From Bacteroidota bacterium (GTDB lineage: Bacteria > Bacteroidota > Bacteroidia > UKL13-3), in assembly GCA_947460345.1 (NCBI GenBank), contig CANHGM010000003.1, forward strand, positions 62,001-126,000: a DNA stretch of 64,000 bases, read 5' to 3'. Made by a program: the position numbers and the translations under genes. This document shows positions 6,613 to 60,957 of the stretch, piece by piece (the first letter of the stretch is position 1; every line of letters starts with the position of its first letter). The notes beneath the pieces are model-generated. The model saw only the letters and a program-made list of their open reading frames with translations. It ran no database searches and was not told the DNA's origin.

Positions 6613-6837
6613 ATGAAACATTATTCAGAGGTAATTACAATTAATCCCAATATTAGATTTGGTAAACCTTGCATAAGAGGAATGAGAATTTCAGTTTTTG
6701 ATATTTTAGGTTGGTTGGCATCTGGAATGACAATCAAAGATATAATTGAAGACTATCCTGAACTATCTGAAGAAGATGTTAAATTAGTATTAGCCTATGC
6801 TGCAGATAGAGAACATAAAATTAAAATTGCTTCGTGA
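6613..6837 (+). CDS. DUF433 family antitoxin
   Basis: A 74-residue protein with the hallmark DUF433 pattern: NPNIRFGKPCIRGMRISV followed by a short winged-helix-like segment (ILGWLASGMTIKDIIEDYP). Members of this family are DNA-binding antitoxins paired with PIN-like DUF5615 toxins. The stop overlaps the start of the next gene by four bases (GTGA), which indicates translational coupling. No clear operator palindrome is visible upstream. The pairing with the downstream toxin is established for the family; activity here is inferred. Confidence 0.9.
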   Translation: MKHYSEVITINPNIRFGKPCIRGMRISVFDILGWLASGMTIKDIIEDYPELSEEDVKLVLAYAADREHKIKIAS

Positions 6838-7175
6838 AATTATTATTTGACCAAAATATTTCATTTAGAACCGTCCATTTACTTCAAGAATACTTCCCTC
6901 TTGCAAAACATGTTAAAGATTTTGAATTGCAATTTGCAACTGATATTCAGATTTGGAATTTTGCAAAAGCTAACAATTATCATATTGTAACTTTTGATGC
7001 AGATTTTTATGACTTAGTTACTTTGTATGGTCACCCACCAAAAATTATTTGGGGGAGACTTGGAAATACTTCAACTATTAATTTATCAAAAAGTATATTA
7101 CATCACATAGAAATTATATTTAGTTTTATAAATGATATAGAAGATTTTGAAATAGGTTGTTTAGAAATTAAATAA
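6834..7175 (+). CDS. DUF5615 PIN-like toxin
   Basis: A 113-residue PIN-domain-like protein of the DUF5615 group. It begins KLLFDQNIS, where the early Asp is the first acidic PIN residue, and continues with DIQIWNFAKANNYHIVTFDADF, which supplies further acidic residues of the presumed nuclease site. DUF5615 proteins are thought to be RNases inhibited by their DUF433 partner. It starts with GTG, overlapping the antitoxin stop by four bases. The length is normal, so the module looks intact. Its RNA target cannot be read from the sequence. Confidence 0.87.
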   Translation: MKLLFDQNISFRTVHLLQEYFPLAKHVKDFELQFATDIQIWNFAKANNYHIVTFDADFYDLVTLYGHPPKIIWGRLGNTSTINLSKSILHHIEIIFSFINDIEDFEIGCLEIK

Positions 7176-7234: not shown

Positions 7235-7492
7235 TTAATCATAATGAAACCTACATTTTACTATATATATATTATCATCTAATATTTTGTATATCAGTCT
7301 GTGTTCGTCATTTATTCTTCTTGACCAAAATCCTTTGTATTTGTGTTTCAAAGGTTCTGGTTTCCCTATACCAGTAAATGGATTTCTTGATATGTCTTTA
7401 AGAAGTTCGTTTATTCTCAACACCATTTTTTTATCTGTTTTCTGCCAATATATATAGTCTTCCCAAGATTCATCTACAAATATATATTTCAT
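7235..7492 (-). CDS. yoeB: YoeB-type mRNA interferase toxin
   Basis: An 85-residue toxin of the RelE/YoeB superfamily that cleaves mRNA in the ribosomal A site. The sequence tracks E. coli YoeB closely. The Glu in GIGKPEPLK, the Arg pair in WSRRINDEHRLIY and the C-terminal RFHYD match the catalytic Glu46, Arg65 and His83 region. It is encoded second in the operon, overlapping the antitoxin stop by four bases. All catalytic positions are present, so the toxin appears functional. Confidence 0.93.
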   Translation of the reverse strand: MKYIFVDESWEDYIYWQKTDKKMVLRINELLKDISRNPFTGIGKPEPLKHKYKGFWSRRINDEHRLIYKILDDNIYIVKCRFHYD

Positions 7493-7743
7493 TCTTCTAT
7501 GAGCGATTTTTCAAAAGAGTTTCCGTTATTTAGTTTTTCAATGGCAGCATCTAATCTTTTCTCATTTGCTTTTGAAGACAGTTCATGATTAGTTGTAATT
7601 AAAGAATTATACTCTCCTAATGACATGATAACTATCCCATTGTCTTTCCCTCTGTTTATTATTAATGTCTCAAAATTTTGTGAGACTATGTCTAAATATT
7701 TCTTAATGTCTTTTCTGAAATCTGAGATTGATGTAGTTAACAT
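7489..7743 (-). CDS. yefM: YefM/Phd-type antitoxin
   Basis: An 84-residue Phd/YefM antitoxin. The N-terminal dimerisation and DNA-binding fold is recognisable (MLTTSISDFRKDIKKYLD, then GIVIMSLGEYNSL). A charged C-terminal tail (residues 55-84) is expected to wrap the YoeB toxin. The protein should neutralise the toxin and, with it, repress its own promoter. Immediately upstream lies a 32-bp palindromic region with three TGTAC cores, annotated separately, which matches the known YefM recognition core. The start ATG is at 7741-7743. Confidence 0.92.
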   Translation of the reverse strand: MLTTSISDFRKDIKKYLDIVSQNFETLIINRGKDNGIVIMSLGEYNSLITTNHELSSKANEKRLDAAIEKLNNGNSFEKSLIEE

Positions 7744-7745
7744 TT

Positions 7746-7793
7746 TTGTACTTATTTTTGTACAAATTTAAGTACAACTTTTGATTTTTACAA
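7746..7793 (-). promoter_or_regulatory. yefM-yoeB promoter and overlapping palindromic operator
   Basis: The arms TTGTACTTA (7746-7754) and TAAGTACAA (7769-7777) are perfect inverted repeats. Centred exactly between them is TTTGTACAAA (7757-7766). The three TGTAC/GTACA cores are therefore spaced 12 bp apart. On the minus strand a consensus Bacteroidetes promoter overlaps: TTG (complement of 7791-7793), a 20-bp spacer, then TAAATTTG (complement of 7763-7770). Binding of YefM/YoeB here would cover the -7 box. E. coli YefM also recognises TGTACA-core repeats. Confidence 0.78.
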
Positions 7794-7809
7794 ATTAAAT
7801 AACCAACAT

Positions 7810-7846
7810 AAAAAGCCCCTGAAACTTAACATATCAAGGGCTTTGA
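7810..7846 (-). terminator. Intrinsic terminator downstream of the universal stress protein gene
   Basis: Read on the minus strand, a 7-bp stem AAAGCCC (complement of 7838-7844) pairs with GGGCTTT (complement of 7812-7818) and runs into a T stretch. It sits 24 bases past the stop of the usp gene and also insulates the yefM promoter. Confidence 0.72.
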
Positions 7847-7867: not shown

Positions 7868-8692
7868 TTATACCGGATAAATCAAAATGGGTAACTCAGC
7901 ATGGTAAGCAAAAAACTTAGTCACACTAAAGTGAAACAAGCTGCTTAAAAAGCCTCTGTGTTCGTGAGCCAATACTAAAATATCTGGCTTATGCGTGCGT
8001 ATATATGTCTCGATACCATGTTCTATTTCACCTCTTTTTAAGTTTCTAAAAGTTACAGCATCATTGGCAAAATATTGCTTAAATGAATCTGCTTTTTTGG
8101 TGGCATCATCTATTTGTGGCTCATAATCTTCTATGATATGAATGGCTTGAATATTGGCGTTAAAATGTTTAGCAAATTTAACTGCATCTTCTATGACCAA
8201 TTTATCTTTTTCTTCATAACTGGTTGCAAACAACATCTGATCTATTTTGTTTATTTTATATCCATAAGGAATGGCTAAAATTGGGATATTCACACGCTTA
8301 GCTACCCCCATAGTAATGGTGCCTGCAATCTTATCAATAATACCTGTTGCTCCTTTGGTTGCCATAATAACCATATCAGCATCAAATTCTTTACAAGCAT
8401 CCACAATATTATCAATAGGGAATCCAAACTTGGTGTAATATTCAACTTGTAAATTAGGGTATTTGCTTTTCATTTCAGCTTTCAAATGATCCATGCCATG
8501 TTTCGAATCATTCTCGGCATTGGTTATTAAAGTCTGCATGATTTCATTACTCAAACCTGATTCTTGTGCCATAGCAAAAAATGAATTTTGTATGATTAAT
8601 CTAGCATCGATTGATTGGCAATAATTAGCAGCAAATTCTAATGAACTGTGCGTTAATTCAGAAAAGTCAGATGGGAATATAATTGTTTTCAT
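7868..8692 (-). CDS. Tandem-domain universal stress protein (UspA family)
   Basis: A cytoplasmic stress protein with two UspA domains in tandem (about residues 1-143 and 150-274). The first domain carries the ATP-binding signature MATKGATGIIDKIAGT, a G-x2-G-x9-G-T-like loop, followed by ANIPILAIP-like residues (VNIPILAIP). The second ends with LAHEHRGFLSSLFHFSVT and lacks the Gly-rich loop, so probably only the first domain binds nucleotide. The start is the ATG at 8692 (MKTIIFPSDFS); the open frame extends seven codons upstream from a TTG that would add an atypical leader. It stands alone between two intrinsic terminators. Confidence 0.88.
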   Translation of the reverse strand: MKTIIFPSDFSELTHSSLEFAANYCQSIDARLIIQNSFFAMAQESGLSNEIMQTLITNAENDSKHGMDHLKAEMKSKYPNLQVEYYTKFGFPIDNIVDACKEFDADMVIMATKGATGIIDKIAGTITMGVAKRVNIPILAIPYGYKINKIDQMLFATSYEEKDKLVIEDAVKFAKHFNANIQAIHIIEDYEPQIDDATKKADSFKQYFANDAVTFRNLKRGEIEHGIETYIRTHKPDILVLAHEHRGFLSSLFHFSVTKFFAYHAELPILIYPV

Positions 8693-8794
8693 TAGTGATT
8701 TTATTTTAAGCAAATATACTTAAACAAAAATGAAATTATCATTAACAAAAATCAATTTAATAAATGATTTTAATCAGTTTTTATAATCAAAAAA

Positions 8795-8824
8795 AAAGCT
8801 GTTAACATATATGCTAACAGCTTT
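8795..8824 (-). terminator. Intrinsic terminator after the gyrA-TPR operon
   Basis: On the minus strand a 10-bp stem AAAGCTGTTA / TAACAGCTTT closes a short loop and is followed by a run of T residues (A residues at 8790-8797 on the plus strand). It lies 20 bases past the stop of the TPR gene. Confidence 0.8.
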
Positions 8825-8844
8825 TAATTAATTCTTATATTATT

Positions 8845-34819: not shown

Positions 34820-34840
34820 TCTGAAACACATTCAAATTCA

Positions 34841-34874
34841 AAAATCCCACTTAGTTTTAAGTGGGATTTTTTTT
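34841..34874 (+). terminator. Intrinsic terminator of rpsA
   Basis: A 13-bp perfect stem, AAAATCCCACTTA (34841-34853) with TAAGTGGGATTTT (34858-34870), has a GTTT loop and continues into T residues. It begins 21 bases after the rpsA stop. Confidence 0.92.
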
Positions 34875-60921: not shown

Positions 60922-60957
60922 AAAAAGCCAGTTTGAACGCATTCAAGCTGGCTTTTT
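60922..60957 (+). terminator. Intrinsic terminator of the M16 peptidase gene
   Basis: A 16-bp stem, AAAAAGCCAGTTTGAA (60922-60937) with TTCAAGCTGGCTTTTT (60942-60957), has one G-U pair and a CGCA loop. Confidence 0.9.

Follow-up and report, generated by a model that had tools for sequence, protein, structure and literature searches.

A predicted three-core operator interlocked with a Bacteroidota-type promoter ahead of a yefM-yoeB toxin-antitoxin operon

Control of a toxin-antitoxin operon depends on the number of repressor units bound at the promoter and on the contacts between them. How such units may be arranged on a promoter of the Bacteroidota type is the question raised by a yefM-yoeB locus in a Bacteroidota bacterium, where three evenly spaced GTAC cores lie directly ahead of the antitoxin gene. 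The locus was analysed within the window, that is, the whole 64,000-nucleotide (64-kb) stretch of DNA presented above, and alongside yefM-yoeB loci from the same and other phyla.

The antitoxin gene, yefM (7489-7743, minus strand), encodes 84 amino acids assigned to the Phd/YefM family (PF02604, 3e-16; 59.4 bits, cut-off 29.8). The 85-residue YoeB/Txe toxin gene, yoeB (7235-7492, minus strand; PF06769, 3.6e-40; TIGR02116, 2e-36, 124 bits against a cut-off of 51.8), lies immediately 3' of it with an overlap of 4 bp. For both proteins the nearest solved relatives by sequence are in 2a6q, with E. coli YefM at 3.1e-8 and YoeB (2a6q_E) at 1.3e-36. Judged by its score against the strict equivalog NF008499 (46.7, with a cut-off of 121), the window YefM falls outside the E. 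coli equivalog. It has both R10 and R31, described as the recognition arginines of YefM in the accessible text of PMC3303803 and PMC3920265, and these are common to the window repressor and its E. coli homolog. The possibility that the module came from a phage or plasmid was considered and rejected, as no phage match was found and the window YefM is unmatched in viral contigs.

The three-core array occupies 7746-7777, with no strand assigned, and leaves a gap of only 2 bp before the yefM start codon; its sequence is TTGTACTTATTTTTGTACAAATTTAAGTACAA. The earlier note had described a 32-bp region palindromic at 28 positions and holding three TGTAC/GTACA cores exactly 12 bp apart, and both properties are present, with 28 of 32 palindromic positions and GTAC tetramers starting at 7748, 7760, and 7772. 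A full TGTACA is found only at the central core; those on either side read TGTACT/AGTACA. The ladder GTAC-N8-GTAC-N8-GTAC occurs once in the window and once in the genome of 3,000,683 bp, at yefM, and no triple and a total of six pairs arose in 40 dinucleotide-shuffled versions of the window. By itself, the palindrome is less special than the core triple: four 32-mers in the window, three of them elsewhere, are palindromic at 28 or more of 32 positions, compared with none in four shuffles. A TGTAC-N7-TGTAC pair is found at one further genome site, C2:81357, and a reversed-pattern control yields more. Regulation of other genes in trans by the array was rejected, as the triple is unique in the genome and the C2:81357 pair is likely due to chance.

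Promoter and operator are interlocked. A standard sigma-70 promoter scan found no minus-strand match here, as expected for the phylum, where the elements of the housekeeping sigma factor are TTTG at -33 and TANNTTTG at -7, the latter box being numbered from T-12 to G-5 in the accessible text of PMC6847099. On the minus strand, a -33 element TTTG (7791-7794) stands 20 bp from a -7 element TAAATTTG (7763-7770), giving TTTG-N20-TAAATTTG, in agreement with the separation of about 19-21 bp typical of Bacteroidetes sigma-ABfr promoters. The promoter is thus of the Bacteroidetes type, as had been suggested, and its -7 box (7770-7763) does lie inside the operator. The extent of 7746-7793 originally given to the whole feature encloses the operator but stops 1 bp short of the promoter, since TTTG runs from 7794 to 7791. 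From the published numbering of the box, transcription is predicted to start at an A at 7758 on the minus strand, which would give a leader of 15 nt (7758-7744). The final G of TAAATTTG is the G of the middle GTAC, so that core 2 (7760-7763, minus strand; predicted -5 to -2) is fused to the -7 box, while core 1 (7772-7775, minus strand; predicted -17 to -14) falls within the -33/-7 spacer and core 3 (7748-7751, minus strand; predicted +8 to +11) lies just 3' of the predicted transcription start.

Very probably the array serves the yefM-yoeB operon as its autorepression operator, bound by YefM as predicted from its layout. In the portions available of PMC3920265 and PMC4803016, YefM is described as a repressor and YoeB as a co-repressor acting on a pair of TGTACA palindromes spaced 12 bp, and a change in the distance between palindromes abolishes cooperative binding at the second site. 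Binding, cooperativity over three sites, and repression are all predicted for the window operator from its sequence. YefM dimers would recognize GTAC-centred sites through the N-terminal R10 and R31, with YoeB tightening the binding as co-repressor, and neighbouring sites 12 bp apart would be bound cooperatively. Given that the G of the -7 box belongs to core 2, that core 1 takes up the spacer behind this box, and that core 3 lies over the earliest transcribed bases, occupied cores would exclude the sigma factor and simultaneously block the start region, and YefM and the sigma factor would be mutually exclusive on the middle site. Degradation of YefM would then empty the sites and derepress the operon.

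Several known operators are built from the same unit. That TGTACA-core repeats are the recognition elements of E. coli YefM, as the earlier note stated, agrees with the accessible text of PMC7730913, where YefM-YoeB footprints a TGTACA-core motif, and of PMC3920265, as well as with the control locus from E. coli (L126, ATTGTACAATGAACTGTACAA), which contains GTAC-N8-GTAC as published; the same is true of the E. faecium control (L142, ATTGTACAATATAATGTACAATT). Operators from E. coli and enterococci carry a pair of TGTACA cores spaced 12 bp, a distance that the literature consulted describes as precisely maintained, and the same two sources give core and spacing as conserved in diverse species. 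Like the window array, the E. coli yefM-yoeB operator, composed of a long and a short palindrome, has TGTACA/GTAC cores 12 bp apart from centre to centre. It has two cores, which cover the -10 box and the start site, respectively (accessible parts of PMC7730913, PMC3920265, and PMC4803016), whereas the window has three, and the -10 box of its sigma-70 promoter, TACAAT, has TAC in common with the core, whereas TAnnTTTG in the window shares the G. The Enterococcus axe-txe operator also has cores 12 bp apart, one within the spacer of the promoter and the other over the -10 box, but it has only two, its start site is without a core, and its strong promoter is weakly repressed (PMC7730913 and PMC3760812, in their available portions). 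In the Streptomyces yefM/yoeB operator, TCGTACGA and TGTACC are likewise 12 bp apart, although there are two cores, the flanks are GC-rich, and the promoter is actinobacterial (PMC3303803, from the text accessible). By analogy, the window operator can be regarded as the sum of the E. coli (-10 box and start) and Enterococcus (spacer and -10 box) arrangements, with all three positions filled.

For a comparison across related loci, YoeB-bearing loci were collected from the best 80 matches to the window YoeB, on named genome contigs, and from further genomes of the phylum and family. Parsing of 197 loci left 188 with a usable upstream frame and 174 with a YefM-like frame, 149 of them on the Bacteroidota side and 25 others; 142 of the 149 were kept once upstream regions with more than 85 percent similarity had been taken out. 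About a dozen non-YefM antitoxins, recognized by eye (examples are L021, L028, L030, L168, L180, L188, L194, L195, L200, L201, L204, and L206), were kept in the 142-locus counts, which they can only lower. Among these Bacteroidota-side loci, in which near relatives of the window are over-represented so that kinship inflates conservation, GTAC pairs spaced 12 bp were found in 112 of 142, the outcome sought by the proposed check of Bacteroidota yefM upstream regions; the three-core ladder is present in 58, and TAnnTTTG runs into a GTAC core in 88. In 200 rounds of dinucleotide shuffling of the upstream regions, a mean of 0.125 loci (maximum 2) had a pair, and triples never arose. The -7 box falls on core 2 in 48 of the 58 ladders, on core 1 in four, and on core 3 in one, and of the 88 fused loci, 31 have TTTG 19-20 bp upstream of the -7 box, every other gap occurring at most three times. 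R10 and R31 are present together in 59 of 59 three-core loci; R31 is absent in 6 of 78 two-core loci. A search of 296 genomes of the phylum for TTTGTAC-N8-GTAC-N8-GTAC found seven, of which four adjoin a YoeB match (G000, G057, G064, and G068) and three are from G238, G283, and G123.

The sample from other phyla, drawn from plasmid records of Pseudomonadota, Bacillota, Actinomycetota, Cyanobacteriota, and Fusobacteriota, comprises 25 parsable loci. A 12-bp pair is present in 18 of these, and none of the 25 has three exact cores or TAnnTTTG fused to a core. With imperfect third cores (at least 3/4 matches) counted, one accompanies 1 of 20 other-phyla 12-bp pairs versus 82 of 117 on the Bacteroidota side. 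Fisher tests of the Bacteroidota-side loci against the others gave p = 1.4e-5 for three cores and p = 7e-10 for the fusion, values that assume independent loci, which these are not. Confounding of antitoxin lineage with phylum is extensive in the sample, so the third core could be a property of the lineage and not of the phylum.

An issue for any reading of the array is whether all three cores are operator sites or only two of them, as in E. coli, with the third a relic or a by-product of an AT-rich promoter. The third core is dispensable, since 54 of the 142 Bacteroidota-side loci have exactly two exact ladder cores, and a 12-bp pair suffices in 20 of 30 other-phyla loci of a stricter set. 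Yet across 87 loci every base of the flanking cores, at -12 and +12, shows 75-91 percent conservation, a level far higher than that of the intervening bases, and the third core found at 82 of 117 pairs compares with 2-8 of 117 at off-register offsets. In the stricter set, an exact GTAC stands at -12 from the fused core in 71 of 90 loci and at +12 in 63 of 90, as opposed to 0-1 at offsets of 10, 11, 13, or 14. A two-site operator with an idle third core is thus unlikely, and three functional sites are the preferred reading.

The proposal that the operator logic is conserved across phyla holds in so far as core and 12-bp spacing recur, in the controls as well, but the pattern is not universal. 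The stricter set, of 183 unique loci across the Bacteroidota side and others, contains 78 with a 12-bp pair, 59 with three cores, 21 with a 13-bp pair, 16 with GTAC but neither pair, and nine with none. In a tree of 107 YefM proteins, built on few columns and with rough bootstraps, 16 rows fall on one branch (support 96/93), 14 of them with 13-bp spacing; the remaining two rows are L223, with a degenerate first core (GTCC) at 13 bp, and L146 (Gloeocapsa), spaced 12 bp. Off the branch are two 13-bp rows, the adjoining L225 and L143 (Mycobacterium), which lies elsewhere in the tree. The 13-bp clade includes the cyanobacterium Picosynechococcus (L242) and a locus on a viral contig (L240), a near-copy of which (L241) was left off the tree. 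When a single 13-bp member was then used as query, all 13 matched loci were spaced 13 bp, seven of them in genomes that had not come up before.

The loci listed for the 13-bp lineage are L175, L177, L181, L182, L184, L186, L187, L189, L190, L198, L199, L208, L209, L221, L224, L225, L240, L241, L242, and L261, and in 19 of these 20 the yoeB match starts at least 10 bp past the yefM stop. With start codons as predicted, the R10 equivalent is residue 11 in 16 of 20 13-bp loci and residue 10 in 133 of 137 12-bp loci, so that a longer arm may go with the wider spacing. Five YefM-like antitoxins ahead of yoeB (L254, L256, L257, L258, and L259) have neither a 12- nor a 13-bp GTAC pair, and TGTCA/TGACA repeats, noted by eye, take its place. 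Both the core and its spacing seem to go with the lineage of the antitoxin. A broader reading, offered tentatively and at somewhat less than an even chance, is that operator geometry is heritable with the YefM-type antitoxin lineage and not with the host, a 12-bp lineage in which Bacteroidota have an additional, third core interlocked with the -7 box being set against a 13-bp sister lineage common to Bacteroidota, cyanobacteria, and viral contigs, where one more residue in the N-terminal arm may accompany one more base pair between sites.

These lineages also bear on the identity of the protein that reads the sites. Palindromes with short cores are commonly targeted by other repressors, but a regulator other than YefM is very improbable here, given that the only triple in the genome is the one at yefM, that spacing of 12 or 13 bp tracks the YefM lineage across phyla, and that YefM-YoeB of E. 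coli leaves a footprint on the same motif (PMC7730913, accessible text). Least probable of all is an RNA hairpin or terminator in place of a protein site, for although 28 of 32 bases are complementary, the palindrome is AT-rich and broken by mismatches, it spans the -7 box and so would be mostly untranscribed from the yefM promoter, and its conservation runs in 12-bp steps.

Conservation of the TGTACA/GTAC core and of the 12-bp spacing across diverse bacteria is already published. A literature search, mainly of non-subscription papers, found no Bacteroidota YefM operator, three-core YefM operator, or 13-bp lineage, and what goes beyond print, as far as searched, is the usual third core and the fusion of middle core and -7 box seen in the Bacteroidota-side upstream regions. 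Together, the third core and its integration with a promoter of Bacteroidota type look like a local variant of wide occurrence. Many Bacteroidota have a three-site version that uses the 12-bp unit of the two-site E. coli operator with a different promoter box, and together these operators provide a natural series for relating site number to repression: two sites at -10 box and start, two at spacer and -10 box, and three. The 12-bp and 13-bp lineages offer a ready test of how antitoxin contacts fix operator spacing.

Upstream of the operator, a universal-stress-protein gene (7868-8713, minus strand) is followed by a hairpin with a U-run (7812-7844, minus strand; -16.3 kcal/mol, z -4.5), absent from the output of a simple consensus terminator scan, that likely ends this gene and thereby isolates the yefM promoter. 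The other near-perfect 32-bp palindromes of the window, at 8794-8825 (30/32), 34840-34871 (28/32), and 60924-60955 (28/32), are probably intergenic terminators. Convergent with yefM-yoeB, DUF433 and DUF5615 genes at 6613-7175 (plus strand; PF04255, 4.2e-26; PF18480, 4.3e-30) overlap by 4 bp and are probably a second toxin-antitoxin-like pair beside it. Among the collected loci, a 3.4-kb contig labelled Thermodesulfobacteriales (L043) carries a Bacteroidota-like yefM-yoeB pair (YoeB identity 82 percent) with a three-core operator, a case of misbinning or transfer.
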